The notes under the pieces: model-generated | The model's database searches: none | What the model saw: the letters and a program-made list of their open reading frames with translations, nothing else | Told to the model about the DNA's origin: nothing | Made by a program: the position numbers and the translations under genes | Shown here: piece after piece, positions 1,131-32,495 of the stretch | Layout of the letters: every line of letters begins with the position of its first letter | Position numbering within the stretch: the stretch's first letter is position 1 | NCBI GenBank assembly: GCA_016212215.1 | Contig: JACRGV010000139.1 | Coordinates: forward strand, 1-45,375 | Length of the DNA: 45,375 nt | Source of the DNA: Nitrospirota bacterium | Lineage (GTDB): Bacteria; Nitrospirota; 9FT-COMBO-42-15; HDB-SIOI813 | Reading direction: 5' to 3'

Positions 1131-1139
1131 AAAGGCACT

Positions 1140-5526: not shown

Positions 5527-5541
5527 TAAGGGGGATAATAC

Positions 5542-6263: not shown

Positions 6264-6266
6264 CAC

Positions 6267-7163
6267 ATGAAAACATTTGATCAAATAATTAAACCTGCAA
6301 TATCAAATTTTGAATGTTTCTCTGATCATATAGAAATATCTGATCAGGAATTCGAGATGTTCAGGGGCTTTATCTACTCTAACGCCGGAATCAACCTGAA
6401 TTCTACAAAGAAAAACCTTTTGCAGACACGCCTGATTAAACGATTGAAACAAACTGAATGTGAGTCTTTCTCCCAGTATTTTAGATTGATCAAGAATGAC
6501 TCTACCGGTGAAGAGCTGATTGCAATGCTTAATGCAATCTCAACAAATCTTACTAGGTTCTTCAGAGAGGAAGAACATTTTAAATTCCTTAAACAGACAG
6601 TACTCCCTGCCATTATAGCAAACAAACGGAAAAAAGATGATCGCCGGATAAGGATATGGAGCGCGGCATGCTCCTCAGGCGAAGAGCCATACACACTTGG
6701 GCTTACCCTCCTTCCACTAATTGAAAATCCCCTTGGATGGGACATTAAGATACTTGCAACTGACATATCAACAGATATCCTGAAGAAGGCTTCTGAGGGC
6801 ATATACGAGGAAGAAAAAGTAAGTGATATCCCGAAAAACCTGCTTGAAACTTTTTTTACTAAAGAAAAGATTGAAAATAAAACCTGTTATTATGTGAAAC
6901 CGTTGCTCCATAATATTATAACCTTCCGCAGATTAAACCTGATCCAGGATAATTATCCATTTAAGGGAAAATTTGATTTTATATTCTGCAGAAATGTAAT
7001 GATATATTTTGACAAAAAGACACAAGAAGGAATCGTTAATAAGTTTTACAATTATCTTGAAGACGGCGGCTACCTGTTTATCGGTCACTCTGAAAGCCTG
7101 AATGGGGTTAAATCTCCTTTTAAATATATAAAGCCTGCTGTTTATAAAAAAGGAGGAGAGTAA
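6267..7163 (+). CDS. cheR: Chemotaxis protein methyltransferase CheR
   Basis: 298 residues. It methylates glutamates on MCPs using S-adenosylmethionine. Seen: N-terminal helical domain (about 20-90), NLTRFFREEEHF, the SAM-binding stretch RIWSAACSSGEEPY, and FCRNVMIYFDKKTQ near the end. There is no TPR extension. The ATG lies only a few bases from the end of a palindromic repeat and has no clear ribosome site, so the repeat end seems to form its leader. Two bases separate it from cheB, implying coupling. Confidence 0.94.
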   Translation: MKTFDQIIKPAISNFECFSDHIEISDQEFEMFRGFIYSNAGINLNSTKKNLLQTRLIKRLKQTECESFSQYFRLIKNDSTGEELIAMLNAISTNLTRFFREEEHFKFLKQTVLPAIIANKRKKDDRRIRIWSAACSSGEEPYTLGLTLLPLIENPLGWDIKILATDISTDILKKASEGIYEEEKVSDIPKNLLETFFTKEKIENKTCYYVKPLLHNIITFRRLNLIQDNYPFKGKFDFIFCRNVMIYFDKKTQEGIVNKFYNYLEDGGYLFIGHSESLNGVKSPFKYIKPAVYKKGGE

Positions 7164-7165
7164 GT

Positions 7166-8257
7166 ATGTTAACCGGTATGAATTCAGTCAGAAAGATTAA
7201 GGTGTTGGTGGTTGATGACTCTGCTGTTGCGAGAAATATTCTTGTAAACGGGTTACGTCAGTTTCCATTTATAGATGTAGTAGGTTCAGCCCCTGACCCG
7301 TATGTTGCAAAGGACAAGATTATACAATTGCTGCCGGATGTATTAACCCTTGATGTAGAGATGCCGAGGATGGACGGGCTTACCTTTCTAAAAAAGATTA
7401 TGGAACACCGCCCCATGCCTGTGGTAATGGTAAGCTCTCTTACCAAACGCGGCGGAGATTTAACTATAAGCTGTCTTGAGTCAGGGGCGATTGACTTTAT
7501 CACCAAACCTGAGATTGACGTCTCTGATGGGATTGAAAAGATGGTAAGCACTCTTGCTGAAAAGATAAAATTTGCATCAAAGGTCAAAGTAAAAAAGGTT
7601 GGGGCATCTGAAAATAAAATGGGTCAGGTAAAACCTGTTGTCTCTTGTGCAATGATTGAGACGACAAATAAGATTATTGCTATCGGGGCATCAACCGGCG
7701 GCACAGAGGCAATAAAGCATGTCCTTGAAAGAATGCCTGCTGATTCACCAGGGATTGTAATTACACAACACATGCCGGAAAAATTTACAAAATCCTTTGC
7801 AGAAAGGTTAAACAGACTCTGCCATATTGAGGTTAGGGAGGCTGTACATGGTGACAGCGTGATCCCAGGTCTTGCACTTATTGCCCCTGGAAACTTTCAC
7901 ATGCAGTTAAAAAGAAGCGGGGCAAGATATTTCATAGAGACACAACAATCCCCGCAGGTAAACGGCCACCGTCCTTCAGTTGATGTTATGTTTGAATCAG
8001 TAGCCAAATATGCCGGCAGTAATGCTGTCGGTGTTATCCTTACAGGAATGGGTGCTGACGGTGCAAAAGGCCTGCTGGCAATGAGAGAAAACGGTGCAAG
8101 AACCATTGCACAGGATGAGGAAACAAGTGTGGTATTTGGTATGCCTAAGGAAGCAATACTTCTTAATGCCGCTGAAAGCATCTCCCCAATTCAGAACATT
8201 GCAGATGAAATATTTAAACTGCTTAGTAAAGGGATTCCGGTGGCTGTGGGGGCATAG
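7166..8257 (+). CDS. cheB: Chemotaxis methylesterase/deamidase CheB
   Basis: 363 residues: receiver (about 8-125; VVDDSAVAR, phospho-Asp in LTLDVEMPRMDG, KPEIDV) followed by the methylesterase domain (about 168-355). Catalytic triad motifs are visible: Ser in IGASTGGTEA, His in TQHMPEKFTKSFAERL, Asp in ILTGMGADGAKG. It removes methyl groups from MCPs when phosphorylated by CheA. AAAGGAGGAG 7-10 bases ahead supports the ATG at 7166; an in-frame ATG at 7178 is an alternative. Last gene before the core-d repeat. Confidence 0.95.
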   Translation: MLTGMNSVRKIKVLVVDDSAVARNILVNGLRQFPFIDVVGSAPDPYVAKDKIIQLLPDVLTLDVEMPRMDGLTFLKKIMEHRPMPVVMVSSLTKRGGDLTISCLESGAIDFITKPEIDVSDGIEKMVSTLAEKIKFASKVKVKKVGASENKMGQVKPVVSCAMIETTNKIIAIGASTGGTEAIKHVLERMPADSPGIVITQHMPEKFTKSFAERLNRLCHIEVREAVHGDSVIPGLALIAPGNFHMQLKRSGARYFIETQQSPQVNGHRPSVDVMFESVAKYAGSNAVGVILTGMGADGAKGLLAMRENGARTIAQDEETSVVFGMPKEAILLNAAESISPIQNIADEIFKLLSKGIPVAVGA

Positions 8258-8470
8258 TATGGCCTATCATGAGCCTCCAGCACTCAAAGGATGATGAAAA
8301 TAAGGCCCCCTCACCGTGCCCCCCTCCTGCCTCCCCCCGCAAAGGAGGGGGGAGGAATTTGGTAGGAATTTAATTGCAGCTCTCCCGCCGGGGGAGAGGG
8401 AGGCAAACGTTTATTCCCCCTCCCTTGACGGGAGGGGGTTAGTGGGAGGGTGAGCTATGGAGATTGTTGG
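8258..8470. repeat. Core-d palindromic repeat, plus orientation
   Basis: A degenerate head module (8265-8300) is followed by core d: CCTCCCCCCGC-AAAG-GAGGGGGGAGG, CTCTCCCGCCGGGGGAGAG and CCCCCTCCC-TTGACG-GGAGGGGG hairpins, closing with tgagctatggagatt just before the next start codon. Its close reverse complement lies at 14640-14805, so the two copies bracket 8.47-14.63 kb as an inverted pair. Confidence 0.88.
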
Positions 8471-10258
8471 ATGAACCTTGACAAATACCGCCAGATTTTC
8501 TTTGATGAGACCTCAGAGGAACTCAATTCCCTTGAGAGCCTTGTCCTTGAGACTGAGAAAACACCTTTTGATATAGACGCGATAAACTCCATCTTCCGTC
8601 TGTTTCACCGCTTAAAATCTTCATCAGCAATGATGGGACTTCATAATTTCAGTGAACTATCTCATCAGGCAGAAGATTTATTATCAATTATTAAAGAAGG
8701 TAAAATCTCTGCAGACAAGACCGTTATAAGCATCCTTCTTTCTGTTATTGATGCTATGCGAAAGCTTATTAATATGGCAGAATCAGGGAATTTAGCAGGT
8801 TTTCAACCTGATGAGCTTATATCTCAATTAAATGAAATATGTACAGTTGCTGAGAATAAACCCCACCCTCACCTTAATCCTCTCCCTGAGGGAGAGGAAA
8901 TTTCCCTCCCGGATACTGATTTGAGGAGGAACAGTGTACCGCTCATAAAGGACATCGAAAATTCCCTCCCCTTCAAGGGGAGGGTCAGGGTGGGGATGGG
9001 GTCAGCGCCGGATGAAGTATCAATAACACAGCCGCACCACGGCCTGAATGTCATCAGAATTGATGAATCTGAGCTTAATGATCTGATTGATATGGCAGGT
9101 GACCTGATTTCCACGATATCAGAATTGGATAGAATAACTGATTATATTGACCGGATATCTTCAAATAAAGAGATACAGGATGTTAATCACAGGATTAATT
9201 ATGTAAAAAGGAAGGCAGATAAGCTTTCAATAAACATACATAACAGGCTATTGGGAACCAAGATGGTACCTGCAGGTGATATGTTTGAACGGCTTAAACG
9301 TGTTATACACGACCTTTCAATTAAAACAAATAAGTGCATTCAGGTGCTTATAAACGGTGCAGAGATAGAATTAGACAGGGCAATTGTTGATAAACTATTC
9401 AATCCATTGCTTCATATTGTTAGAAATGCAGTAGATCATGGAATTGAAGATGATGAAGTACGAATCAAGAGCGGTAAAACTCCCATTGCTGTAATTACAC
9501 TGTCTGCATCACTTGAAGGACATTTTGTAACTATAACAGTTGAGGATGACGGCAAAGGGATTGATATAGAAAAGGTTAAAAATGAATTAATAAAAAGGGG
9601 AATTGCTGATAAAAATGAGATAGATAAAATAAGTGAGAAAGAGATTATAGATTACCTGTTCATACCTGGATTCAGTACAAAAGAAGAGGCAACAGATATA
9701 TCCGGCAGAGGAATGGGGCTTGATATTGTAAAAGAGAATGTAAAAGAATTAAAGGGAGAGATAGCAATAATCCCTGTAAAAGCCAAGGGAACTACAGTTA
9801 AGATTACCATACCACAGACCTTGTCAATTATTCGGTGTCTACAGGTTTGTATAGGTAAAGAGACTTATTCCATACCATCTGAATCAATTATGGAGATTAT
9901 ACCTTTCAGGGAAAAGGAATTTATGACTGTTAAGGGCCGGCCATTATTACTATACAGGGGATCACCTGTTCCGGTAGCAGACATAGATAACATACTTAAT
10001 ATAAAATCTGATGACAAATCAATATCATCTCATGTAATCATCAGCAAAGAAGAGGTGAAAGCGGCAATACCTGTAAGCAACATCATAGGTGAACAGGATA
10101 TCCTGATAAAACACCTTGGACAATCATTTTCAGGAGTTGTAGGTATATTGGGTGTCGGTATTTTAGCAGGGGGCAGATTATCATTAATTATGGACACTGA
10201 TTTCCTCCTGCGAATATATCTTAAAAAAGGGGTGCCTGATGACAGAATCCATGCTTAA
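8471..10258 (+). CDS. cheA: CheA-type histidine kinase with repeat-encoded linker
   Basis: 595 residues. Hpt with His46 (FHRLKSSSAMMG), no recognisable P2, dimerisation about 190-275, ATPase with HIVRNAVDHGIED, EDDGKGID and GRGMGLDIV, then a CheW-like C-terminus. A GTG at 8450 would add seven residues from the repeat; I prefer the ATG at 8471 because MNLDKYRQIFFDE is the usual CheA opening and GGAG lies eight bases ahead, itself inside the repeat end. Residues about 130-178 are encoded by an inserted core-b repeat, replacing the P1-P3 linker. The 3' end overlaps cheC by 20 bases, implying coupling with the adaptation phosphatase/deamidase genes. Confidence 0.93.
   Translation: MNLDKYRQIFFDETSEELNSLESLVLETEKTPFDIDAINSIFRLFHRLKSSSAMMGLHNFSELSHQAEDLLSIIKEGKISADKTVISILLSVIDAMRKLINMAESGNLAGFQPDELISQLNEICTVAENKPHPHLNPLPEGEEISLPDTDLRRNSVPLIKDIENSLPFKGRVRVGMGSAPDEVSITQPHHGLNVIRIDESELNDLIDMAGDLISTISELDRITDYIDRISSNKEIQDVNHRINYVKRKADKLSINIHNRLLGTKMVPAGDMFERLKRVIHDLSIKTNKCIQVLINGAEIELDRAIVDKLFNPLLHIVRNAVDHGIEDDEVRIKSGKTPIAVITLSASLEGHFVTITVEDDGKGIDIEKVKNELIKRGIADKNEIDKISEKEIIDYLFIPGFSTKEEATDISGRGMGLDIVKENVKELKGEIAIIPVKAKGTTVKITIPQTLSIIRCLQVCIGKETYSIPSESIMEIIPFREKEFMTVKGRPLLLYRGSPVPVADIDNILNIKSDDKSISSHVIISKEEVKAAIPVSNIIGEQDILIKHLGQSFSGVVGILGVGILAGGRLSLIMDTDFLLRIYLKKGVPDDRIHA
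8858..9003. repeat. Core-b repeat inserted in frame within cheA
   Basis: Inside the coding region are CCTCTCCC-TGA-GGGAGAGG (8879-8897) and CCCTCCCC-TTCAA-GGGGAGGG (8964-8984), enclosed by CCCCACCCT (8861) and AGGGTGGGGATGGGG (8989-9001). This is the same core as the intergenic copies at 6165-6258 and 31006-31105. It keeps the reading frame open and encodes Pro/Gly/Glu-rich sequence (PHPHLNPLPEGEE, LPFKGRVRVGMG). Confidence 0.93.
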
Positions 10259-10832
10259 TAATAATGGCATAGCCAGGTTAGACATGATTGCAAAGGTTGG
10301 GGCTGATAAGACTGCCGGTGCACTTTCCAAATGGACAGGAATGAGAATAAAGGCAACAAGCTCCAGTGCATCAATAGTCCATTATTCAAAACTTCTTGAA
10401 CCGTCATTCTCTCCTGAGGATATTGTTACAGCAATACTTATCCGGGTCTCCGGCAGTATGGAAGGTTACCTTATATTCCTTTTTGATGAAAGGAGTGTAC
10501 TGACCATTGTTAAGAAAATCCTCCATAAAGAGATTGACACTGTATTGGATTCAGATAATCTGACAATCTCTGTTATAGAAGAAACAGGAAATATAATAGG
10601 TACAGCATTTTTAAATACTATTGCGGCAAATTATAATCTTGAAATGTATCCTTCATCTCCGGTCACAGCATCTGACTTGTGTGGTGCAATATTGGAATCT
10701 GTAATCGCACAATTTGCAATCAGAGGAGAACACGCATTAAGCTGTCAGATCTCATTCAGTTCAGATGATGAGGAAATAAAAGGTATATTCTCAATGCTGC
10801 CGGACGATATTAACGCGTGGAATTCAATATGA
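10239..10832 (+). CDS. cheC: CheY-P phosphatase CheC
   Basis: 197 residues, CheC/CheX/FliY family. The phosphatase signature Ser/Asp-x3-Glu-x2-Asn-x22-Pro is met by Ser111, Glu115, Asn118 and Pro141 (SVIEETGNIIGTAFLNT...YPSSP). The second half has ASDLCGAILESVIAQF, and no clear second active site, so it may have one functional centre. Overlap with cheA (20 bases) and ATGA overlap with cheD show a tight cheA-cheC-cheD unit, matching the known CheC-CheD binding. AAGGGG precedes the ATG at 10239; a second in-frame ATG is at 10251. Confidence 0.88.
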   Translation: MTESMLNNNGIARLDMIAKVGADKTAGALSKWTGMRIKATSSSASIVHYSKLLEPSFSPEDIVTAILIRVSGSMEGYLIFLFDERSVLTIVKKILHKEIDTVLDSDNLTISVIEETGNIIGTAFLNTIAANYNLEMYPSSPVTASDLCGAILESVIAQFAIRGEHALSCQISFSSDDEEIKGIFSMLPDDINAWNSI

Positions 10833-11317
10833 AAATTATTAACATTGGCGTTGGTGAACTTGCTGTTTCAACTGAACCCGCTGTCTTCAAGACTATACTT
10901 GGTTCCTGTGTAGGTGTTGCGCTATATGCAAACCAGGAAAGGCTCGGCGGATTAATCCATATTTTTTTACCCCGGATGCCAAGGATGAACAACCAGGACG
11001 GTAACAGGGCAAAATATGCCGATACAGGTATCCCTCTGTTGATAACTACGATTGAGAACAGATATGGGGTTGCCAAAAATAAACTTGTTGCAAAGATAGC
11101 AGGCGGTGCAAATATGTTCCCGTTTAAGAAAATCACATCGCCATTACTGGATATAGGCTCAAACAATATAACAATAGTTAAGGAAACACTTGACCGGCTG
11201 AGGATACCAATAATCGAGGAGGATGTCGGGGCGACTTACGGAAGGCGGATAGAGTTTCATCTTGATACCGGGAAATTTATTATATTTAGTGCAAACATGC
11301 AGGGGGTATTAAAATGA
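10829..11317 (+). CDS. cheD: Chemoreceptor glutamine deamidase CheD
   Basis: 162 residues. CheD deamidates receptor glutamines and binds CheC. Catalytic residues in the family positions: Cys27 (ILGSCVGV) and His45 (GGLIHIFLP), with Thr22 and YADTGIP also conserved. The AGGGAN-type segment AKIAGGANMF is present. I start at the ATG at 10829 because it overlaps the cheC stop as ATGA and gives the canonical MKIINIGVGE opening; the upstream GTG at 10817 is less likely. The gene overlaps the next receiver gene by four bases. Confidence 0.93.
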   Translation: MKIINIGVGELAVSTEPAVFKTILGSCVGVALYANQERLGGLIHIFLPRMPRMNNQDGNRAKYADTGIPLLITTIENRYGVAKNKLVAKIAGGANMFPFKKITSPLLDIGSNNITIVKETLDRLRIPIIEEDVGATYGRRIEFHLDTGKFIIFSANMQGVLK

Positions 11318-11682
11318 AGAACAGGATACTTATAGTAGATGATGCAATGCTTATAAGGATGATGTTAAAGGATATCATGGAGAATAACGGATATATAGTA
11401 GTGGGGGAGGCTGATGATGCTGACCAGGCTTTTGATGTCTACCAGGAAACACAACCTGACCTTGTTACAATGGATATTACCCTTACATCATCCAGCGGCA
11501 TAGATGCCATCCGCAATATTTTAAATTATGATAATAATGCAAGGATTGTAGTAATTTCCGCACTTGAACAGAAAAAGGTGATTATGGAGGCTTTGAAGTA
11601 CGGCGCCAAGGATTTTATTATTAAGCCTTTTGAGGAAGACCGGGTAATAAACTCTGTGAAAAACCTATTGTCGTATGCTTGA
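11314..11682 (+). CDS. CheY-like single-domain response regulator
   Basis: 122 residues, receiver only. Seen: IVDDAMLIRMMLKDIME, phospho-Asp in LVTMDITLTSSSG, Ser/Ala switch in VVISALEQ, Lys in IIKPFEED. The opening and the KDIMENNGY stretch resemble the CheY of Gram-positive and CheC/CheD-type systems. It overlaps the cheD stop by four bases (ATGA) and closes the plus-strand chemotaxis run. It is the natural substrate candidate for the adjacent CheC. Confidence 0.92.
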   Translation: MKNRILIVDDAMLIRMMLKDIMENNGYIVVGEADDADQAFDVYQETQPDLVTMDITLTSSSGIDAIRNILNYDNNARIVVISALEQKKVIMEALKYGAKDFIIKPFEEDRVINSVKNLLSYA

Positions 11683-11804: not shown

Positions 11805-12107
11805 TCACACACTTATATCAATATGATGTTTTTGTTCTGAAGGGTCATTCTTTTCTTTTTCATCTTCTTCCTGCTTTTCTTTGTTGCTCTGCTCTTCATT
11901 TTTTTGCCTGTCATATTTTACACTAATATCCACTTTGTCTGAAGGAGCAATATCCTCAATCTTTTTAGTCTTTTTTTCTGATGCTTTCTGGTTTTGATGT
12001 TCGAGGCGGGACTGTTCTATCTGTGCATAATGCTGTTGAACCTGTTGAACCTTTTCAACACTTGATATGTTTGTAAGTATCTGGTGTATATTGTTTACGT
12101 TCGACAT
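11805..12107 (-). CDS. Small charged protein of unknown function, MCP-linked
   Basis: 100 residues. I do not recognise a named domain. The first half is Gln-rich and probably helical (SSVEKVQQVQQHYAQIEQSR); the second half is very rich in Lys, Glu and Asp and likely disordered. No signal peptide or membrane segment. The start overlaps the mcp stop as TAATG, so it is translated with the MCP. Similar short Gln/Lys/Glu proteins beginning MSN-Asn occur in flagellar and chemotaxis clusters of deltaproteobacteria, from memory; homology is not tested here. Its coding 3' end abuts the core-c repeat. Confidence 0.7.
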   Translation of the reverse strand: MSNVNNIHQILTNISSVEKVQQVQQHYAQIEQSRLEHQNQKASEKKTKKIEDIAPSDKVDISVKYDRQKNEEQSNKEKQEEDEKEKNDPSEQKHHIDISV

Positions 12108-13780
12108 TATAGCTTAAACTGGCTTGTCATGGCCTGAAGCTCAGAGGCGATCTTTGAAAGCTCATGTGCAGCACTGCTTGTCTCACTTACACTGGAGTAT
12201 GCCTCTTTTGTTACAGTAGATATGCCCTCCATATTCGCCGACACTTCTCCGGCAGCAGCAGACTGTTCTTCTGTAGCTGCTGCTATCTGCTGTATCATAT
12301 CAGAGACATTTTTAACCATATCAATTATGGCATTAAGGCTCTCACCTGCCTCTGAGGCAAGGCCAACACCTTCTTCAACATCCTTTCTACCGCTATTCAT
12401 TGAATCTACTGCACCGGATGTCCTTTTCTGAATAACATCTATCTTGGTTTTAATCTCTTTTGTTGCCTTTGTAGTCCTCTCAGCAAGTTTTCTTACCTCA
12501 TCTGCAACTACAGCAAAACCCTTGCCGTGTACCCCTGCCCTTGCCGCCTCGATAGCGGCATTTAATGCAAGGAGATTTGTCTGATCAGCAATATCATTGA
12601 TTACCGTTACTATCTCTCCGATCTGATCAGAGCTCTTTCCAAGCTCTCCAATTGTAACAGCAGATTCTTCTACTGACTTTGCAATATTCCTCATCCCCCC
12701 TACTGTCTCTGATACTATGTTGCCTCCTTTTACTGCCATATCAGATGCCTTTTTGGAAAAATCGGCTGCCTTACCTGCATTCTTTGCAACCTCTACTACT
12801 GTTGCACTCATCTGTTCAATTGCTGAGGCTACCTGTGTAACCTGAATATTCTGATTCTGTGTACCTTTTGAAATCTGCTCCGCTGTGGCAGACAACTGCA
12901 TGGCAGAAAAACCTACCTTTTGAGTCAATTCAACAACCTTTATTAAAACCGATGATAGTTTATCAACAAACTTATTAAACCCTTGTGATACCTCCCCTAT
13001 TTCATCGTTACGGTCTGTATCTAATCTACGCCTGAGATCTCCTTCACCGCTTGCAATGTCTTTAAAAACACCTGAGAGCTGCTGCAATGGTTTTATAACT
13101 GCATTGATAATCATAAAAGCCATTGCAATGCAAACCAAAACAGCGGCTAATATCATTACATTTATTACCAACCCATTCTTCTTTGCATTTTTACCTATAC
13201 CATCAATAGCAGTCTTGAACATAGCTTCTTCATTGTTGATGTATGTTTCAAGTTCCTGATTAAGCCTTGATGAAATATTGCTGAATTCTCTTTGTTCATA
13301 AGAAAAGCCTCGCAGCTCACCCCCGCCCTGACCCTCCCCCATCAAGGGGGAGGGATATATTTTTGTACCCTGATCCTCCTTTGTCATTTGAAATTGTGAG
13401 GATAGAATAAGCTTGGCACCCTGTTTATAAAAATCATTATATAACCTATCAATGCGATCAATTCTATTTAAATGTTCAGGGTTATCATTCTCACTGCCTC
13501 TTATCTTAGTTAATAGGGATAAGAAATGCCTGTTCAGTTCATCAGTTTTTGAAAGTCTTCTGCTATCCGACATAGCCGCTGCATTAGAAAACTGTTCACT
13601 GATAGATTTGAAGTCTTCCATTAAACTCTTAGAATCCTGCATATTGACATAAGCGGTATTTTTCAGAAAATTGGACTCAAGCAGGGTATTTCTGTTAGAA
13701 ACGAAAGAATAAATTCCTGTTGCAATCAATAATATTGCAATTATACTGAAACTTAATAGTATCTTATTTTTAATTTTCAT
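12107..13780 (-). CDS. mcp: Methyl-accepting chemotaxis protein with HAMP and repeat-encoded insert
   Basis: 557 residues. N-terminal membrane segment (about 7-27), periplasmic domain about 28-205, second membrane segment about 206-227, HAMP about 228-280 ([21 protein letters not shown]...[11 protein letters not shown]), then the signalling coiled coil with tip [21 protein letters not shown]. Residues 139-163 ([18 protein letters not shown]) come from an inserted palindromic repeat in the ligand-binding region. TAATG overlaps join it to the HDOD gene upstream and to the small charged gene downstream, so all three are probably co-translated. Confidence 0.94.
13292..13366. repeat. Palindromic repeat inserted in frame within an MCP gene
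   Basis: Plus-strand CAGCTCACCCCCGCCCTGACC followed by the hairpin CCCTCCCCC-ATCAA-GGGGGAGGG (13332-13353). The same unit with the same right edge is in fliK (44376-44420) and in the intergenic gap at 31156-31196. Read on the minus strand it encodes [15 protein letters not shown]. Confidence 0.9.
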
Positions 13781-14812: not shown

Positions 14813-15259
14813 TTATGGCAATTTAAGCAGGTTATCAAGGTTTAAAACTGTAATCAGTCTTTCTTCCTGTTTTCCGACACCGGTAATATAATCAGAACTT
14901 TTTGAACTGTCTATTGAAGGACATGGTTCAATAAAATCCCTGTTTAATATAATTACATCAATTACAATATCAACTACCAAGCCTGCTAACCTCCCTCCGG
15001 CATCTACAATAATTATCCTCGATGCCTCTGTGATCGAGGTTACGTTTTTTCCCATCCTCTTCCTTAAATCTATTATTGGAATAATCTTCCCTCTGAGATT
15101 TACAACTCCGTCTACATAAGAAGGGGCCTTGGGGACTTTAACAGCATCTATTACCCTGATAATCTCCTGTACTCTCATTATATGGATCCCATAATCCTCA
15201 TTACCGACACGGAAGGTTACTAACTGTAAATTGTTTTCTATAAGGGTTTCTGTTTTCAT
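14813..15259 (-). CDS. cheW: Chemotaxis coupling protein CheW
   Basis: 148 residues, a single CheW domain: QLVTFRVGNEDYGIHIMRVQEIIR, PKAPSYVDGVVNLRGKIIPIIDLRKRMG, TGVGKQEERLITVLNLDNLLKL. The gene lies 40 bases downstream of cheB in the minus-strand chemosensory set and is its last gene before the core-d repeat. It most likely serves the CheA at 16366-18228. Confidence 0.95.
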   Translation of the reverse strand: MKTETLIENNLQLVTFRVGNEDYGIHIMRVQEIIRVIDAVKVPKAPSYVDGVVNLRGKIIPIIDLRKRMGKNVTSITEASRIIIVDAGGRLAGLVVDIVIDVIILNRDFIEPCPSIDSSKSSDYITGVGKQEERLITVLNLDNLLKLP

Positions 15260-15299: not shown

Positions 15300-16346
15300 T
15301 CATAATGCATTTACTATCTCTTCAGCCATCTTTCCAAGCGGCACTATCTTATCTACACATCCGCTGTCAATTGCCGCCTTAGGCATCCCGAATATAACTG
15401 AGGTTTCCTCATCCTGTGCAAGTGTCCTGCCCTTTGCCTTTCTGACAGCCATAATGCCTTCTTTTCCATCCTGTCCCATCCCTGTCAATATTACACCGAG
15501 TGTATGTTCATTATATGCCTCAACAACAGAGGTGATTCCAATGTCAACAGAAGGCATGTGAAGCATAGGCGGCTCTTTACTTAATTTTACACAAACCTCA
15601 TCCCCAATCCTCCTCCTGACTGTAAGATGAAAACCTCCAGGCGATATCAAAACCAGACCGGGCTTTACTATATCACCCTCCTTTGCCTCTCTAACCTCTA
15701 TCTGACTTATCTCATTCATCCTCTCTGCAAAGGATGCTGTAAACAAAGGAAGCATGTGCTGAATTAACAATACACCGCAAGGTAAATTTTTAGGCAGCCT
15801 CGGTATTACCTCCTGCAGGGACTTTGGGCCTCCTGTAGAGGCACCGATTACAACCACTTTTATTTTACTCCTGCTTTGTGAAGATGGACGTTCTATTGTT
15901 GAATATGGTTTAACAGCTCCTGAGGTCTGAGTTATTTTTATCTTTTTTACACCAAGGGCTTTTATCTTTCTGATAAGTTCCTCTTTAATATTAATTATGC
16001 CTGCAATATTTCCTGTAATATGTTTTGGAATATAATCCACTGCACCGTATTCAAGTGCCTTGATTGTCTCTTTAGCGCCTTCTTCAGTAAGAGAGCTTAT
16101 CATTATTACAGGTATTGGGTTCTCTTTCATTATCACTTTCAGGGCCTCAAGCCCTGTCATAACCGGCATTTCTATATCCATTGTAATAATGTCCGGCTGT
16201 AATGTCTTAATCTTTTTTAATGCATCTGCGCCATTTATAGCCTCACCTGCCACCTGTATAGCAGGGTCAGCATTCAGCATCCCTACAATTGCCCTCCGCA
16301 TAAATGCAGAGTCATCCACTACCATTACTTTTATCGGGTTAGTCAT
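15300..16346 (-). CDS. cheB: Chemotaxis methylesterase/deamidase CheB
   Basis: 348 residues. Receiver about 5-120 (MVVDDSAFMRRAI, phospho-Asp in ITMDIEMPVMTG) and methylesterase about 165-345 with Ser in IGASTGGPKS, His in IQHMLPLFTASFAERM and Asp in ILTGMGQDGKEG. Second CheB of the window, paired with the CheA and CheR of the minus-strand set. AGAGG lies about nine bases before the ATG; the upstream cheA ends 19 bases away. Confidence 0.95.
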   Translation of the reverse strand: MTNPIKVMVVDDSAFMRRAIVGMLNADPAIQVAGEAINGADALKKIKTLQPDIITMDIEMPVMTGLEALKVIMKENPIPVIMISSLTEEGAKETIKALEYGAVDYIPKHITGNIAGIINIKEELIRKIKALGVKKIKITQTSGAVKPYSTIERPSSQSRSKIKVVVIGASTGGPKSLQEVIPRLPKNLPCGVLLIQHMLPLFTASFAERMNEISQIEVREAKEGDIVKPGLVLISPGGFHLTVRRRIGDEVCVKLSKEPPMLHMPSVDIGITSVVEAYNEHTLGVILTGMGQDGKEGIMAVRKAKGRTLAQDEETSVIFGMPKAAIDSGCVDKIVPLGKMAEEIVNAL

Positions 16347-16365: not shown

Positions 16366-18228
16366 TTAAACTTTTGATAAATTCTGGTGCTGATTTATAA
16401 GGGAACCGGGATCTAATATCAGTCCAACCTTGCCGTCCCCTGTAATTGTCGCGCCTGAGATCTCTTTAATATCTGAGAAATATGAACCTACTGATTTAAT
16501 AACCACCTCTTCCTGATGACACAACTCATCTACAATAATACCTATCCTCTTTTCCGCAATTGCCATAAGGACAACATAAACCAAATCCTTTTTATTCCTG
16601 TCCATCTCTATATCCAATACTTCACTCAACCTCACAAGCGGTATCAGGCGGTCTCTGACATTCAATATTTCCTGACCGTCAATTGTCTTAATACAATCCC
16701 TCGTAACCCTGACTGTTTCTAAAATACAGGAAAGGGGCAATGCGTATATCTCACCGTTTGTCTTTACCATTAATACCTGAATAATTGCTAGGGTTAAAGG
16801 AATCTTCAGATTAATCTTTGTTCCTTTACCGACTTCGGAACTTACATCAATTATTCCATTGATGCGGCCAAGGTTAGTTTTAACCACATCCATTCCAACA
16901 CCTCTCCCTGAAATGTCGGTAATCTTTTCTGCTGTACTGAACCCAGGTTCAAAAATAAAACTTATGATCTCTTTTGAAGAAAGACGTGTATCTTTTGATG
17001 TTATAAGGCCTTTTTCTCTTGCCTTTTTCTCGACAACAACAGGGTCAATCCCTTTTCCGTCATCAGATATCTCTATAACAATATAGTTCCCCTCCTGATA
17101 TGCACCAAGTGTTATTGTGCCGGTATCAGGTTTACCCTTTTTTATCCTTTCCGACGGGTGTTCAACCCCGTGATCTATCGAATTTCTGACAATATGCACC
17201 AAGGGATCAGCAATCTCTTCTATAACTGATTTATCAACTTCAGTCGCTTCACCATAAATTCTTAAATCAATCTTTTTATCAGCCTTTCTTGCAATATCCC
17301 GAACCAGCCTTGGGAATTTATTAAACACCTTTCTGATTGGCACCATCCGCATCTTCATAACTGATAATTGAAGGTCAGTTGTAATAAGATTCAGGTTTGA
17401 TGCTGTTTCAATTAGTGACTTAATTTTATCATCTCCATCATACAATTGCTCTATCTCAGAGAGTATTTTGCTCAGCCTGTTTCTGCTTAGAACCAGTTCT
17501 CCGACAAGGTCCATTACCTGATCCAATCTCTCTGTATCAATCCTTAGAGTCTTATCCTTTTCATGATCCCCTGATTTCTCCTCAGTCTCCGGTTTTTGTT
17601 TAGATTCGCTTTTGTTTAATATGCCTTGTTCTTCTTTCTCACTTCTAACTTCTTGCTTCTGACTTCTATCTTCTGTTTCTTGCTTCTCACTTCTTGCATC
17701 TTCCGTCTGACTTCTTGCTTCTTGCTTCTGACTTTCGACTTCTTCCTTCTTGCTTCTCACTTCTTGCATCTTACTTCTAACTTCTGTTGTCTCTACTGCC
17801 TCACTCCCGCTTTTAGCAGTACATGAATATTCCAGCAAAAGTGATAACTTCATTTTAATTGGTTCAATATTTATTAAAGTTCCACCGGAACTCTCTTTTA
17901 TCTCTTTCATCAGGGACTTTAAGACATCAACTGCCTCAAGGATTATATCAATAGTCTCAGGGGTAGCCTGCATCTCCTTCTGCCGCATTTTATTCAATAC
18001 ATTTTCAGCCTGATGAGCTACATCTACGAGGCGGTTAAATCCGAGGAATCCGGCTGACCCTTTTACACTGTGGACTGCCCTGAATATCTCATTAATTAAG
18101 GAAAGGTCTCCGGGAGTCTCTTCAAGTTTTAGAAAAAACTGATCAAGCCCTTCTAACATCTCATCTGTCTCAGCAATAAATTCATTAATCAGTTCCTGCA
18201 TCTCATCCTGCGGCAGTGAATCTTCCAT
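16366..18228 (-). CDS. cheA: CheA histidine kinase with heptad linker from a heptanucleotide array
   Basis: 620 residues. Hpt with His53 (AVHSVKGSAGFLGF), a linker at 148-200, dimerisation about 228-310, ATPase (HIVRNSIDHGVEHP, SDDGKGID, GRGVGMDVVKTN), C-terminal CheW-like domain about 480-615. There is no P2 domain. The linker is a run of seven-residue repeats of EVRSKKQ type, highly charged and probably helical, encoded by a seven-base tandem repeat. GGAGG lies just before the ATG. It is the third CheA in the window and probably the one that drives the neighbouring CheW-CheZ, CheY and CheB. Confidence 0.95.
   Translation of the reverse strand: MEDSLPQDEMQELINEFIAETDEMLEGLDQFFLKLEETPGDLSLINEIFRAVHSVKGSAGFLGFNRLVDVAHQAENVLNKMRQKEMQATPETIDIILEAVDVLKSLMKEIKESSGGTLINIEPIKMKLSLLLEYSCTAKSGSEAVETTEVRSKMQEVRSKKEEVESQKQEARSQTEDARSEKQETEDRSQKQEVRSEKEEQGILNKSESKQKPETEEKSGDHEKDKTLRIDTERLDQVMDLVGELVLSRNRLSKILSEIEQLYDGDDKIKSLIETASNLNLITTDLQLSVMKMRMVPIRKVFNKFPRLVRDIARKADKKIDLRIYGEATEVDKSVIEEIADPLVHIVRNSIDHGVEHPSERIKKGKPDTGTITLGAYQEGNYIVIEISDDGKGIDPVVVEKKAREKGLITSKDTRLSSKEIISFIFEPGFSTAEKITDISGRGVGMDVVKTNLGRINGIIDVSSEVGKGTKINLKIPLTLAIIQVLMVKTNGEIYALPLSCILETVRVTRDCIKTIDGQEILNVRDRLIPLVRLSEVLDIEMDRNKKDLVYVVLMAIAEKRIGIIVDELCHQEEVVIKSVGSYFSDIKEISGATITGDGKVGLILDPGSLINQHQNLSKV
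17629..17787. repeat. In-frame heptanucleotide array in cheA
   Basis: About 22 imperfect copies of a 7-base unit (plus strand acttctt, gcttctg, acttcta). Since 7 is one more than a multiple of 3, three units make 21 bases or seven codons, so the protein shows a seven-residue period. Intergenic copies of the same array occur at 24465-24515, 31208-31265, 34700-34750, 36765-36835, 37120-37148 and 42860-42966. Confidence 0.92.
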
Positions 18229-18242: not shown

Positions 18243-19394
18243 TTAGACAAAACCGAATTCTTTTAAAATACTCTCAACATCATCCTGTTTTAATGTAGTA
18301 TTATCCTTAAATTCAATCTGCTGGATATTTTCTTCAACATTATCTTTTGATTTAAGACCAAAGGCTACAATAAGCTGAAGTATCCTCTTTTCAACCTCTT
18401 CAATAAGCCCCACAATTACTTTTATCTTCTGACCGGTAAGGTCCTGAAAAGACAGACCGGTTATAATATCCATCATCGCCTCTTTGTTATCCATCACTAT
18501 TTGTTTAATTTCACCGGCCGCCTTTTTTACATCTCCCCCTTTTTCTAATCCCTCAATGTGATTGAGTATTGAGTCCTGACTATCGAGTACCTGTTCTACC
18601 TGCCCCATTACAGTATGCGTAGCTTGTTCTGTAAATTTTGAGATCTCAGATAACTGGAGAGATGCCTCCGGGATTTTATCGGAAACCGAAGCAATATTAG
18701 GTTCAACAGCCTGTAGTTTCTTAATAGTAGAATTAATATATTTTGCCAACTCTCCTATCTGACCATACAGGTTCTCGTTTAACTCCTGATGAAAATCGCC
18801 CTCAGCCATTGCCTTAGTCACTTCAACTATCTTATTAATTACATCATTATTTTGAACATCATTATTTTGGACTTCGTGCACAATATTATCCTGATGAGGT
18901 CGGTTAATTTCTTCTGGGGAGAACTGCGGTTGTTCAGAGAATATGGAGAAAGATTCTTTAAATAATCTTGGAAGGTCAAGGACAATAATGAGCTGTTTGT
19001 TATTCCTTATAATACCGCAGATATACTCTGAATTAAGGCTCCTGAATACAGACGGCGGTTTTTCAAGGCTTTCTATTGATGTACGGATTACCTCTGAGAC
19101 GCCATCAACAAGAATGCCTATTTTATCTCCATTAAATCCGACAATGATAATCCTTGTGTCTTTGGAAATATCCTGATTCTGTATCCCAAGCTTATCTGCA
19201 AGATTGACGACAGGTATCACAGCCCCCCTCAAATCTATTACACCAAGAAAATGAGGCGGCATATCAGGTATCCTGTTAATATGTTCAAACCTGTTTATCT
19301 CATGAATATCCGATATCTCAATTGCAAACTTATCTTCACCGACAGTAAAACTTACAAGCTGTTTAATATTTCCATTCTCCTTCTGGGCCTGCAT
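18243..19394 (-). CDS. CheW-HAMP-like-CheZ fusion protein
   Basis: 383 residues joining coupling and phosphatase functions. Residues 8-147 are a CheW domain (QLVSFTVGEDKFAIEISDI, HFLGVIDLRGAVIPVVNLADKLG). Residues about 185-228 look like the second half of a HAMP (VTKAMAEGDFHQEL, GQIGELAKYINSTIKKLQ). Residues about 230-345 are a CheZ helical hairpin with SFQDLTGQKIK; Asp318 and Gln322 match the catalytic Asp143/Gln147 of enteric CheZ. The C-terminus QDDVESILKEFGF matches the CheZ CheY-binding tail. GGAGG nine bases ahead supports the start. It lies 20 bases from cheY. A continuous open frame is seen, so I do not think this is an assembly join, but I cannot exclude it without reads. Confidence 0.92.
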   Translation of the reverse strand: MQAQKENGNIKQLVSFTVGEDKFAIEISDIHEINRFEHINRIPDMPPHFLGVIDLRGAVIPVVNLADKLGIQNQDISKDTRIIIVGFNGDKIGILVDGVSEVIRTSIESLEKPPSVFRSLNSEYICGIIRNNKQLIIVLDLPRLFKESFSIFSEQPQFSPEEINRPHQDNIVHEVQNNDVQNNDVINKIVEVTKAMAEGDFHQELNENLYGQIGELAKYINSTIKKLQAVEPNIASVSDKIPEASLQLSEISKFTEQATHTVMGQVEQVLDSQDSILNHIEGLEKGGDVKKAAGEIKQIVMDNKEAMMDIITGLSFQDLTGQKIKVIVGLIEEVEKRILQLIVAFGLKSKDNVEENIQQIEFKDNTTLKQDDVESILKEFGFV

Positions 19395-19414
19395 GATTTG
19401 GATCCTCCGGTAAG

Positions 19415-19798
19415 TTATCGCTTATCAAATATCTTTTCTATCTTGTCTTTTAATGTATCAGCAGTAAACGGTTTAACAACATAATTATTGACGCCTGCCT
19501 GAATAGCCTCAAGCACATTTTCTTTCTTTGCCTCTGCTGTTACCATAAGTACAGGCATATTATTAATTACACTATCAGAACGAATAGCTTTGAGGAGATC
19601 TAGTCCGGTCATATTCGGCATATTCCAGTCGGAAACAACCATATCAAACTTCTCCTGCTTTAATTTTAGTAATGCATTGTTACCGTCTTCTGCCTCGTCA
19701 ATATTTGAAAAACCTATCTGTTTCAGAATGTTTTTAACTATCCGGCGCATAGTAGAGAAATCATCTACCACCAATATCTTCATCTTTAGGTCCAGCAT
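19415..19798 (-). CDS. cheY: Chemotaxis response regulator CheY
   Basis: 127 residues and the most classical CheY here: [25 protein letters not shown], phospho-Asp in [17 protein letters not shown], Thr in VLMVTAEA, Lys in [11 protein letters not shown]. The SDWNMP motif is typical of the CheY that binds FliM and is cleared by CheZ, and the CheZ fusion is the next gene. GGGAGG seven bases before the ATG at 19798 favours that start over the internal Met at residue 6. Confidence 0.96.
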
Positions 19799-19800: not shown

Positions 19801-20181
19801 TTACCCTCCCTTAGCTCTTTCTAAGATCATATTTATCTCACTTACAAGTTTCTCCTTGGAAACAGGTTTATTCAGGAATGCTGATGCACCGTTATCTAAA
19901 CCTTTGGCCCTGCTTACGTCATCAATCTCTGTTGTCAATATTATAAGCGGTACATCCGGGATTGTTGAATTTGTACGAATCCATTTAGTAAATTCAATCC
20001 CATCCATCTGAGGCATGTTTAAATCTGTAATTATAAAGTCTACCTCTGTGTTCATCAGCTTCTCCACAGCATCAACTCCATTTGCCGCCATTACAGTCTT
20101 AAACCCCGCACTCTTTAGATAAAGCGAGATAATACTTCTTGTGGTCCTGCAATCGTCTACAATTAATATATTTTTTTCCAT
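19801..20181 (-). CDS. Single-domain response regulator
   Basis: 126 residues from the ATG at 20181. Receiver with [18 protein letters not shown], phospho-Asp in [13 protein letters not shown], Thr in ILTTEIDD and Lys in [11 protein letters not shown] longer reading to 20262 would overlap cheR and add a non-conserved stretch, so I reject it. It lies between cheR and cheY with gaps of a few bases, so it belongs to the same operon. Target unknown. Confidence 0.9.
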
Positions 20182-20185
20182 AGTT

Positions 20186-21040
20186 TTACTTTTGATATAC
20201 CAGTAAATTGTTAATATTAACCAGCTTAAAGGCCCTTGAGATATTAAATAACGATTCTGCATGCCCTATGAACAAATATCCCCCGGGCAACAATGAATCG
20301 TAGATACTATTAACAACCTTCTTTTTAGATGCTTCATCAAAATAGATAAGGACATTTCTGCAGAACACAATGTGCATTCCCTTGAATACACGCAGTTTCA
20401 TGCTATCAAACAAATTTACATTACTGAACTTTACCAGCTTCTTGACCTCCGGTTTGATGCTGTATTTTCCATTGCCGTTTTTACTGAAATATTTAGCCAG
20501 ATACTGTGGAGGAACATTGCGAATAGAATAATCATTGTAATCTCCTCTTCTTGCAGAATTTAAGACCCCTTCGCTTATGTCGGTTGCATGTATCTCAATA
20601 TCCCAATCGGAACTTAAACCGGTTTGAACCCGGTTTAATGTCTGCATCGCCATTGTATAAGGTTCTTCACCCGTAGAACATGCAGCGCTCCAGAGTCTAA
20701 GTTTTTTTACTCCGTTGCCCTCAATCTGTTTAATCAGTTTTGTTAAGATGCCGACCTCAAACACCTGCAATTGATTCATATCCCTGAAGAAACTGGTCTC
20801 ATTAGTCGTTATAATCTCAAATAGTACTGAAAGCTCCTGTTCCCTTTTAGGGTCACTCCTTAGAAAATCAACATACTTCTCAAAACTCTCAAATCCAGCG
20901 TCATCTACCCTCCTTACGAGCCTTGTCTCAAGCACATATTTTTTGTTGTCAGGGAAAAATATGCCGCTCTTTTGATATATAAGATCTCTTAAGGCAACAA
21001 ACACCTTCTCACTCATTTGAATATTCTTAGTTGCTATCAT
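20186..21040 (-). CDS. cheR: Chemotaxis protein methyltransferase CheR
   Basis: 284 residues. ETSFFRDMNQL, SAM-binding LRLWSAACSTGEEPYTMAM, ATDISEGVLNSAR, and FCRNVLIYFDEASKKK are seen. The second CheR of the window, paired with CheB at 15300. Its ATG lies two bases after the HEAT gene stop; a second in-frame ATG (residue 8) is possible. No TPR tail. The two CheR proteins are clearly different in sequence, so they are separate paralogues rather than a recent duplication. Confidence 0.94.
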   Translation of the reverse strand: MIATKNIQMSEKVFVALRDLIYQKSGIFFPDNKKYVLETRLVRRVDDAGFESFEKYVDFLRSDPKREQELSVLFEIITTNETSFFRDMNQLQVFEVGILTKLIKQIEGNGVKKLRLWSAACSTGEEPYTMAMQTLNRVQTGLSSDWDIEIHATDISEGVLNSARRGDYNDYSIRNVPPQYLAKYFSKNGNGKYSIKPEVKKLVKFSNVNLFDSMKLRVFKGMHIVFCRNVLIYFDEASKKKVVNSIYDSLLPGGYLFIGHAESLFNISRAFKLVNINNLLVYQK

Positions 21041-24231: not shown

Positions 24232-24515
24232 CCGAAAATCCCTTCCGGCGGGGTAAGAAAGTCCCGCCTATCCATTTCTACGAGGATAGGCGGGACTTTC
24301 CTGTCCCGCTGATTTTCATGGCCCTTTGTGAACCCTTGGCTCATGAGGGTTCATCCTAAAATAACCCCATCCCCACCCTAACCCTCCCCTTGAAGGGGAG
24401 GGAATTTTGATGTTATACCTAACCCCCTCCCTTGTTTCCAAATTTTGGAGGGGGAATATTCTCGCTTCTAACTTCTTACTTCTCGCCTCTTGCTTCTACC
24501 TTCAGTCTTCAGCCT
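24232..24515. repeat. Core-a + head + core-b + heptamer composite repeat
   Basis: 24232-24290 is core a (GGCGGGG...CCCGCC and GGCGGGAC/GTCCCGC arms), 24295-24357 the head module with a GAACC/GGCTC stem, 24360-24455 core-b-like hairpins (CCCTCCCC-TTGAA-GGGGAGGG at 24383-24403, then CCCCCTCCC...GGAGGGGG at 24424-24454), and 24465-24515 a heptamer array (acttctt type) that runs into the 3' end of the next gene. No other gene is seen in this gap. Confidence 0.88.
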
Positions 24516-25553
24516 TCAGCCTTTCTCCTCCCCCAGCATCTCCAGAAATACATCTATTATCTCAGGGTCAAATTTCTTACCCCGCTCGTTCTTCAGGATT
24601 TTCATAATCTCATCAGGTTTCAGCGGGGGCCTGTATGGCCTGTAGCTTGTCAGGGAATCATACGCATCAACAAGATGAACTATCCTTGATAAAAGCGGGA
24701 TATCTTTCCCCTTCAATCCATCCGGATACCCGCTGCCGTCATAGTTCTCATGATGAGACTTTACTATCTCTGATATAGATTCATACCCTTTAAGAAAAGA
24801 TAATACCTTTCCGCCTATTGATGGATGTTTCTGAACCTCTTTCCATTCTTCAGGAGTAAGGGCAGCAGCCTTATTCAGGATGCAGGAGTCTATACCGACA
24901 TTCCCTATGTCATGAAGCCTGATGGCAATATTAAGATTCTTTATGTCATTGTCATCCAACCCCAGCCTTTTCCCAACCTCCCTGCCGATACTCGAAGCAT
25001 TATCAATATTACCCGGTAACTCAGAGCCCTTTGTCTTTGACAGATAAATCAGCATTTCAATTGTACTGATAATACTCTCCTGTATCTCATCCATTTTCTC
25101 TGAAAGCAACTGATTTACATTTTTCAGTATCTCATTCCTTCTTTTGACATCTTCTATCAGCCTGGCGTTCGTATTTTCAAGTTCTGACCTTTCCAACGCA
25201 TGCCTGACTTCAAGCTTTAACAGGTCATCATCCCATGGCTTTGTAAGAAACTTGAATATCCCTCCATTATTGATAGCGGAAATAATTACAGAGCTTTCAG
25301 CGTAACCGCTCAATATTATCCTGATTGCATCCGGTTGGATATTCATTGCCTCGTGCATAAATGCAACCCCATCCATCTCAGGCATACGGTAGTCGGACAA
25401 TATAAGGTGAACCTTATTATCTTTAAGTATATTCAATGCCTCTACCGGATTGTCGGATTTTAATATATCGTATCCTTCCTTCCTGAAGACCCTGTAAAGC
25501 GAGCTTAATATACTTGTCTCATCATCAACAAATAGAAGAGTATAGGAACCCAT
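24516..25553 (-). CDS. Receiver-HD-GYP c-di-GMP phosphodiesterase (RpfG type)
   Basis: 345 residues: receiver (about 4-120, phospho-Asp54 in LSDYRMPEMDG), linker helix, and HD-GYP domain (about 155-340). Both signature parts are intact: His214-Asp215 in IRLHDIGNVGID and HHENYDGSGYPDGLKGKDIP, followed by VDAYDSLTS. The family hydrolyses c-di-GMP to pGpG/GMP. It differs from its neighbour at 22936, which lost the His. It lies 22 bases downstream of a PAS histidine kinase that is a plausible phosphodonor. Confidence 0.93.
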   Translation of the reverse strand: MGSYTLLFVDDETSILSSLYRVFRKEGYDILKSDNPVEALNILKDNKVHLILSDYRMPEMDGVAFMHEAMNIQPDAIRIILSGYAESSVIISAINNGGIFKFLTKPWDDDLLKLEVRHALERSELENTNARLIEDVKRRNEILKNVNQLLSEKMDEIQESIISTIEMLIYLSKTKGSELPGNIDNASSIGREVGKRLGLDDNDIKNLNIAIRLHDIGNVGIDSCILNKAAALTPEEWKEVQKHPSIGGKVLSFLKGYESISEIVKSHHENYDGSGYPDGLKGKDIPLLSRIVHLVDAYDSLTSYRPYRPPLKPDEIMKILKNERGKKFDPEIIDVFLEMLGEEKG

Positions 25554-29904: not shown

Positions 29905-30091
29905 CCCTTATTCATCCGAAAATCAACCCCATCCCCACCCTAACCCTCCCCTTGAAGGGGAGGGAATAAACTAAGTACCCTCTCCCTCAGGGAGAGGGTC
30001 CGGGTGAGGGTGGGGTTTTCATTGTCCTTTGTGAACCCTCGGTTCATGTCTTTCCTGCTTACGGCTACCTGCTCACTGCTACCTGTTTTTA
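29905..30091. repeat. Core-b + head repeat between fliA and flhG
   Basis: 29910-30020 is core b with inner hairpins CCCTCCCC-TTGAA-GGGGAGGG and CTCTCCC-TCA-GGGAGAG inside CCCCATCCCCACCCT/AGGGTGGGG arms. 30021-30048 is the head module with a perfect GAACC-CTC-GGTTC stem (30033-30045). 30055-30085 is a heptamer-like tail (tacctgc/tgcttac). It is nearly identical to, and in the same orientation as, 30990-31131, so the two flank flhG as direct repeats. Confidence 0.9.
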
Positions 30092-30982: not shown

Positions 30983-31265
30983 TTAGCCTCCGATTCATCT
31001 GAGAATAAACCCCATCCCCACCCTGACCCTCCCCTTGAAGGGGAGGGAATAAACTTGGCACCCTCTCCCTCAGGGAGAGGGTCCGGGTGAGGGTGGGGTT
31101 TTCATTGCCCTTTGTGTACCAACAGTTCATGTGGGTTCATCATAAAATCTCCATAGCTCACCCCCACCCTGACCCTCCCCCCTCAAGGGGGAGGGAATAA
31201 TCTTTAGCGGGTTTCTTGCTTCTAACTTCTTACTTCTTACTTCTTGCACCTGCTACCTGCTACCT
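30983..31265. repeat. Composite repeat between flhG and flhF
   Basis: 30990-31105 is core b, 31106-31135 a head module whose stem is broken (GTACC/GTTC), 31140-31196 a second unit with CTCACCCCCACCCTGACC and hairpin CCCTCCCCC-CTCAA-GGGGGAGGG, and 31208-31265 a heptamer array (acttctt, then cctgcta). No gene or promoter is recognised in this gap. Confidence 0.88.
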
Positions 31266-31268
31266 TTC

Positions 31269-32495
31269 TCAATGGCTGTTTACCCCTTCCATCCCAAGTA
31301 TTAATCTGCTTAACCGCTGGGCCTCTGCCGGCTCTATATCCTCCGGCACTCTCTGGCCTGTTGTAAAATATGATAATGGTTTCTGGGCCTTTATCATTGC
31401 ATTGAATATTATTCCGAATTTCTCTGCCTCATCTAACTTAGTAAATAATAATCCGCTAACCGGTATCTCTCTGAACCTGTTGATCACATCAGTCAGTACC
31501 TCATTACTGCTTGTTGATGCAAGCACAAGATAACAATCCGGTTTGAGCCTGTGTGACCACATTGCTTTTATCTCTTTAATATAATCTCTATCCTTATGAT
31601 TCCTGCCTGCTGTATCTATCAGGATAATATCAGCGTCCCTCCTCTTTTCCACGACCTCGGGTAATTCATCAGGGGTCAGCACAACATCAACCGGAAGTCC
31701 TATTATCTTTGCATAAATCTTCAACTGTTCAATTGCCCCAATCCTGAAGGTATCAAAGGTAACAAGGGCTACCTTCTTTTTGTCTACTAATGTATATTTC
31801 GCTGCAATCTTTGCGATAGTCGTTGTCTTGCCGACACCTGTGGGGCCGACAAACACTGCAATCTTCTGTCCCTTTTCAATATTGTATACCGGGCCGGATA
31901 CCTTCACCTGCTTTTGAATTAATTCATAACCGAGCCTGTTAATCTGCTCAAAATTATTTTTTTGTTCTTCAGAAAGCTTACTGTCAAGGATCCTGACTAT
32001 ACGGCCCGAAAGTGTGACATCAATGCCCTCTGAAACAAGCTTCCTGTAAAATATAACGAGTTTATCAGGAAGACCCTTTAATTGTTCATCTTCCCCGGTT
32101 CGCAGTAATTCCTGAACATAGCTCTTGAGTACCCCTATCTCTGTTTTTACTTCCCTGAGTTCAACAGGAGTAGCACCAAAATCAGCCTTTATCCTGTTAA
32201 TCTCTTCCTTCAACAGGTCTTCTGATAACCCCTCACCCTTACCCTCTCCGACATTTATAAAGGGGGGAGAGGGGTGGGTGAGGGGGGAATACGCTGCAAT
32301 TGCCTTATCTTTTACCTTCTCAGAATAATCTCTGGCAGCGGTGACCTCTACCACCTGCCTGCTGAACATGCCGAATATTCCGTTCCCCTTTTTTATCTCT
32401 CTTGTAGACAAAATTACTGCATCAGGGCCGAGGTCCCTTTTTATAAGTTTTAATGCCTCCTGCATATCTACTGCCTCATATTTTTTAATCTGCAT
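31269..32495 (-). CDS. flhF: Flagellar placement GTPase FlhF
   Basis: 408 residues. N-terminal B domain (1-60, MQIKKYEAVDMQEALKLIKRDLG), variable linker, then the SRP-type NG domain: P-loop FVGPTGVGKTTTIAK, VTFDTFRIGAIEQLK, ADIILIDTAGRNHKD, FTKLDEAEKFG. It localises the first flagellar parts at the membrane. Residues 68-90 (SPLTHPSPPFINVGEGKGEG) are from an inserted palindrome in the linker. The 5' end overlaps flhA by 11 bases, implying coupled translation. The C-terminus ends near a heptamer array. Confidence 0.95.
   Translation of the reverse strand: MQIKKYEAVDMQEALKLIKRDLGPDAVILSTREIKKGNGIFGMFSRQVVEVTAARDYSEKVKDKAIAAYSPLTHPSPPFINVGEGKGEGLSEDLLKEEINRIKADFGATPVELREVKTEIGVLKSYVQELLRTGEDEQLKGLPDKLVIFYRKLVSEGIDVTLSGRIVRILDSKLSEEQKNNFEQINRLGYELIQKQVKVSGPVYNIEKGQKIAVFVGPTGVGKTTTIAKIAAKYTLVDKKKVALVTFDTFRIGAIEQLKIYAKIIGLPVDVVLTPDELPEVVEKRRDADIILIDTAGRNHKDRDYIKEIKAMWSHRLKPDCYLVLASTSSNEVLTDVINRFREIPVSGLLFTKLDEAEKFGIIFNAMIKAQKPLSYFTTGQRVPEDIEPAEAQRLSRLILGMEGVNSH
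32226..32294. repeat. Palindromic repeat inserted in frame within flhF
   Basis: Plus-strand CCCCTCACCC...CCCTCTCC (32230-32250), a short loop, then GGGGGGAGAGGGGTGGGTGAGGGG (32262-32286, read in parts), forming one long hairpin. It encodes a Pro/Gly-rich linker piece between the B and NG domains and leaves the frame open. Confidence 0.88.

Follow-up and report, generated by a model that had tools for sequence, protein, structure and literature searches.

A single gene in a flagellar and chemotaxis region of a Nitrospirota bacterium encodes a CheW adaptor domain and a CheZ phosphatase domain on one polypeptide. The gene lies within a contig stretch of 45,375 nucleotides, referred to below as the window. 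Its frame on the minus strand (18243-19394) runs uninterrupted for 383 codons from ATG to TAA with no internal stops, and four further genomes of its family contain full-length collinear orthologues. Because CheW and CheZ are on one polypeptide, the off-switch of the pathway is probably an integral part of the sensory array and not recruited to it. The protein is likely to be a bifunctional adaptor that tethers a CheY-P phosphatase to the array, in place of recruitment by a short form of CheA. Array docking, CheZ dimerisation and phosphatase activity would be expected of it from its family memberships. The features of the gene and its neighbours are collected in Table 1.

Table 1. Features of the CheW-CheZ gene and the surrounding operon (positions in the window)
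Feature	Position	Strand	Basis
CheW-CheZ fusion protein, 383 aa	18243..19394	-	single ORF; full-length orthologues
Shine-Dalgarno GGAGG, 9 nt before the fusion ATG	19404..19408	-	sequence and Shine-Dalgarno scan
CheW domain, residues 12-147; Arg56 in DLRG conserved	18954..19361	-	PF01584, E 1.1e-36
Linker, residues 148-184, mostly disordered	18843..18953	-	structure model and orthologue comparison
HAMP-like helix pair, residues 185-228, part of the CheZ N-terminus	18711..18842	-	HAMP score; stand-alone CheZ L025; predicted helices
CheZ domain, residues 208-382	18249..18773	-	PF04344, E 2.7e-21; 1kmi_Z
Catalytic motif DLTGQ (Asp318, Gln322)	18429..18443	-	aligned with E. coli CheZ Asp143/Gln147
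Predicted C-terminal CheY-binding helix (QDDVESILKEFGF)	18249..18287	-	predicted helix 370-379; alignment with E. coli CheZ C-terminus
CheR	20186..21040	-	domain match
Second single-domain receiver protein, possible alternative substrate	19801..20262	-	PF00072
CheY, likely substrate, directly upstream of the fusion	19415..19798	-	PF00072; also adjoins the fusion or CheZ gene in G064, G017 and further type A loci
CheA kinase, directly downstream of the fusion, 14 bp gap	16366..18228	-	Hpt, dimerisation, ATPase and CheW domains
CheB	15300..16346	-	domain match
Separate stand-alone CheW, same operon as the fusion	14813..15259	-	PF01584, E 8e-36

Domains and predicted structure

A preliminary description of the window had read a CheW domain, a CheZ hairpin with a DLTGQ motif and a CheY-binding tail in one open frame. 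Profile searches with Pfam and alignment to the E. coli CheZ structure (PDB 1kmi) bear this out. The CheW half scores 125.9 bits (PF01584 cut-off 23.5) and the CheZ half 76.8 bits (PF04344 cut-off 30.7), the latter match extending over residues 208-382 with E 2.7e-21. The CheW half keeps the equivalents of Glu38, Ile39, Gly57, Arg62, Gly99 and Gly133 (E. coli CheW numbering), and Arg56 within its DLRG corresponds to the NLRG arginine, Arg62 in E. coli. In an AlphaFold2 model built on 55 window and locus sequences, the CheW domain has the beta-barrel typical of the family and is modelled at a pLDDT of about 95. Foldseek matches it best to solved CheW structures, among them 8c5v_E, which is CheW in a core signalling unit from E. 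coli (TMt 0.88), and 2qdl_A (rmsd 1.6).

In the C-terminal half, residues 316-322 read FQDLTGQ, which aligns Asp318 with Asp143 and Gln322 with Gln147 of the E. coli protein in 1kmi. This motif is invariant across 24 aligned homologues, and Gln370, Leu377 and Gly381 of the C-terminal CheZ motif are likewise invariant among aligned homologues. A long CheZ-like hairpin is predicted at residues 241-284 and 289-348, followed by a C-terminal helix at 370-379. The apical loop of the hairpin, IEGLEKGGDVKKAAGEI, contains no aromatic residues in the sequence or in the 1kmi alignment. Chain 1kmi_Z is the top PDB match for this half both by sequence and by fold; the fold-search scores are modest (E 1e-3, probability 1.00), as is usual for long helices. 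A search of a viral structure library returned zero matches. Profile, motif and fold together exclude a chance match as the source of the CheZ assignment.

The segment between the linker and the hairpin had been described as HAMP-like. The helix pair itself is predicted (residues 183-197 and 207-230), but the HAMP match at 186-228 reaches 20.9 bits, below the PF00672 cut-off of 25, and the CheZ family match starts at residue 208, within the segment. A stand-alone CheZ from another family (L025, family f7), at 40% identity closer than any other CheZ apart from the f1 fusions, opens with the same segment and there scores 31.6 bits for HAMP, above the cut-off. Fusions of a second type (type B, below) carry a different helical stretch at this position. 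The segment therefore belongs to this particular CheZ lineage and not to the join, and a HAMP domain serving as a separate linker is ruled out.

The operon and other chemotaxis genes of the genome

In order of transcription, the minus strand of the window carries flagellar genes, FliA, regulators, a HEAT-repeat protein, CheR, a receiver, CheY, CheW-CheZ, CheA, CheB, CheW, an HDOD protein and a receptor; apart from FliM, the flagellar gene names were assigned by reading translations. The end of cheY is separated from the start of the fusion by 20 bp. Inside the CheA gene, imperfect 7/14-nt repeats form an array (17622-17803) that codes for a charged linker (EVRSKKEEVESQKQEARSQ), and these same repeats recur at 24443-24536, 31206-31276, 34698-34782, 36748-36832 and 42871-42964. 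A palindromic element (core CCCTCCCCTTGAAGGGGAGGG) is dispersed through the window in at least 15 copies, for example at 8844-9016, 13294-13364, 24348-24408, 29910-30071, 30993-31154 and 44357-44427; some copies lie in frame within genes (the CheA-like 8450-10258, the receptor 12107-13780, and 43653-44951). The two ends of the contig (1-97 and 45230-45326) are perfect inverted copies of one another, and assembly therefore probably ended at a repeat.

A whole-genome profile search found the fusion to be the sole CheZ match above the family cut-off. Two weaker matches elsewhere fall below it, L003 (G000:C5:73183-73560, E 2e-5) and L004 (G000:C98:9170-9547, E 4e-4); L003 is a receptor-like protein in which ALQFQDITRQ, with a CheZ-like DxxxQ motif, follows the MCP signalling domain. 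The source genome contains several stand-alone CheW genes. The fusion as the only CheW of the cell is ruled out by the stand-alone CheW in its own operon and by CheW-length frames in other complete genomes searched. Given this second CheW, the fused CheW domain could have diverged in its choice of partner.

As an alternative to the adaptor-phosphatase reading, the protein might be a CheV-like regulator, its main job being to tune receptor-CheA coupling. The CheZ part would then mostly dock CheY-P or sense phosphate and thereby modify the adaptor, and would not be the signal-terminating phosphatase of the cell. CheV is a known precedent in which CheW is joined to a domain linked to phosphorylation (PMC4742279), and ordinary coupling is available here from the separate CheW. 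We regard this reading as unlikely, however, since the genome has no other CheZ above cut-off and since both catalytic residues are invariant in every aligned homologue. Pfam found no Response_reg domain in the fusion, which accordingly does not have the CheV architecture.

If the CheZ half is a phosphatase, the adjacent CheY is its likely substrate. The window encodes several receiver proteins, and the substrate could conceivably be the second receiver (19801-20262), which is kept beside CheY in G064, G017 and G006, or else CheB or a receiver of other che clusters. That assignment is quite improbable, because cheY directly adjoins the CheZ gene in both fused and stand-alone loci of type A, and because CheY and the CheZ half were lost together in the genome G008 described below. 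A second che cluster on the plus strand (608-11682) has its own CheA genes, CheW, CheR, CheB and apparently CheD. It also contains a CheX-like phosphatase, just under the cut-off, at 10239-10832 on the same strand, so two phosphatase families are possibly in use and may serve two pathways in the source genome.

Orthologues, distribution and origin

The four full-length orthologues are 66% (G064), 60% (G026), 59% (G017) and 58% (G035) identical to the window protein over its whole length. Taken separately, the CheW half is 65-74% identical to that of the window gene and the HAMP-like segment plus CheZ hairpin 62-73%, with synonymous sites near or at saturation. The linker, in which residues 156-182 are disordered in the AlphaFold2 model, is 7-17% identical between orthologues, yet all four keep it in frame. 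Purifying selection on both halves is strong, whereas the linker drifts without losing the frame. With halves 62-74% identical at near-saturated synonymous sites and a linker that stays in frame, both the halves and their linkage are selected.

Two further readings concern the integrity of the gene. One is that an internal start yields free CheZ besides the fusion, much as CheA yields a short form; a GTG at residue 172 with a weak AGGA 7 nt upstream would be the candidate, but this GTG is missing in orthologues L036 and L039 and the positions are irregular elsewhere. A start that is not conserved among orthologues makes the two-product reading very improbable, and it was rejected. The other, that two separate genes were merged through an assembly or sequencing error in a genome fragmented into 164 contigs, has a negligible probability: four more genomes of the family have the fusion with its parts in the same order, as do many families besides, which rules out a frameshift or chimeric join. 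The region of 18900-18960, which runs from the end of CheW into the linker and which the preliminary description had wanted confirmed with reads, is in frame in all four orthologues, although its linker sequence is unconserved.

Relatives were surveyed in samples of genomes, and the loci read were the longest or best matches only. Within these samples, 177 of 296 Nitrospirota genomes have a CheZ match. Reading of loci placed CheW and CheZ in one frame in 13 family-level groups of the phylum (f1, f2, f6, f11, f12, f16, f17, f19, f20, f21, f23, f26 and f36) and found stand-alone CheZ in f7, f9, f25 and one f2 genome. In the CheZ proteins of f10 (L157-L161), the N-terminal region can be read at most as a degenerate CheW and lacks the NLRG arginine; these proteins are possibly former CheW-CheZ fusions. 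Among Thermodesulfobacteriota, the phylum of G298, CheZ matches occur in 68 of 247 genomes, and the loci read there include three fusions (L191, L192 and L196). CheZ matches were found in 97 of 299 sampled Pseudomonadota genomes, and the ten longest CheZ frames retrieved from those 97 contain no CheW. CheW-CheZ thus seems to be common in Nitrospirota and not peculiar to one genome. The preliminary description had not recognised the combination as a standard architecture. No account of it was found in the literature searched, which lay outside subscription papers and architecture databases, where it may be listed.

Other variations on CheZ were seen among the loci from the phylum of G298. In L210-L215, L223 and L224, an insertion of about 100-310 residues splits the two halves of the hairpin, and the three inserts scanned gave no Pfam match. 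L181, L183, L184 and L187-L189 carry an N-terminal extension of about 230-280 aa, which in L181 is weakly Hpt-like.

The fusions occur in two ARRANGEMENTS: type A (f1 and f2) has the order CheY, CheW-CheZ, CheA, and in type B (f19, f23 and others) the order is CheA, fusion, CheB or similar. The two types of fusion fall in different clades of the CheZ tree, with stand-alone CheZ within each, and a single clade of all fused CheZ is rejected (p 1e-6). A single clade of all fusions is not rejected on the CheW tree, which was built from 140 columns (p 0.52). At least two lineages of CheZ contain the fusion, and it occupies two operon positions. The join may have arisen two or more times, or it may be ancient, with repeated loss of CheW; the CheZ-tree result fits multiple fusions as well as one old fusion with CheW losses, so the pairing was either kept or remade.

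One member of the family has lost the CheZ half. In G008, whose genome is 95% complete, what is left of the gene encodes a CheW of 162 aa that ends in the linker, and the locus is without CheZ, CheY and the neighbouring CheA. FliM was not found in the G008 genome, and it is also absent from six other CheZ-less genomes of other families. That G008 lost the CheZ half together with flagella and kept the CheW half links the CheZ half to the flagellar CheY. In G042 of the same family (77% complete), CheZ was not found, and contig ends interrupt the CheW portion of the gene (L041 and L045); this may be a second loss of CheZ in the family.

Proposed function and comparison with known systems

In the function that we propose, the N-terminal CheW domain would occupy a position normally held by CheW in the array of receptors and CheA, and a dimeric CheZ hairpin would hang beneath it on a flexible linker of about 30 residues. 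The C-terminal CheZ helix would catch CheY-P, and Gln322 and Asp318 would drive its dephosphorylation. CheA, encoded by the next gene, and the fused phosphatase could then act at one place on the CheY encoded upstream, without a short CheA. The preliminary description had likewise proposed an array-bound phosphatase, and would have it fixed there permanently. The separate CheW of the operon would let just part of the CheW places carry the phosphatase. Fast local termination of the signal and a fixed kinase-to-phosphatase ratio would be the expected benefits.

HAMP domains elsewhere are signal-passing elements. A more ambitious version of the proposal would have the CheW domain relay the state of the array to the CheZ bundle by way of the HAMP-like helices, so that receptors would control both the production and the destruction of CheY-P; that CheW and CheZ were joined repeatedly, in different lineages of CheZ, would then reflect selection for such control. 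We consider this extension doubtful.

In E. coli, a short CheA brings CheZ to the array through aromatic residues at the tip of the CheZ hairpin (PMC7750401), as the preliminary description had stated for enteric bacteria. It has been argued that even a minor share of the phosphatase, if located at the receptor cluster, alters the dose-response in E. coli. Why some bacteria place CheZ at the array, and how strongly this affects gain and speed, has been discussed on the basis of data and models for E. coli (PMC2673030). A protein in which adaptor and phosphatase are inseparable makes the role of that placement directly testable, and it would give CheZ a route to array localisation without the docking site of a short CheA, in a phylum, Nitrospirota, where the fusion seems to be a common arrangement.

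The fusion shares with E. coli CheZ the DxxxQ active site, the C-terminal CheY-binding helix and, in the structure model, the hairpin fold. It differs from the E. coli CheZ/CheA-S pair in that the proposed tether is a covalent CheW domain and in that the apical loop with two aromatic residues is absent. Like CheV, it combines a CheW adaptor domain with another signalling domain in a single polypeptide (PMC4742279), but that second domain is a phosphatase, whereas in CheV it is a receiver. The CheA-CheC/CheX fusions of Leptospirae also place a CheY phosphatase on a core protein of the array, and a dual role has been proposed for them (PMC10782961); there, however, the phosphatase is of another family and is joined to the kinase and not to the adaptor. 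Stand-alone CheZ proteins of other Nitrospirota, for example L025/L079 and L164, include the closest CheZ relative outside the family (40% identity). They share the HAMP-like N-terminus, and L164 occupies the same operon position as the fusion, between cheY and cheA, but in all of them the CheW domain is absent.
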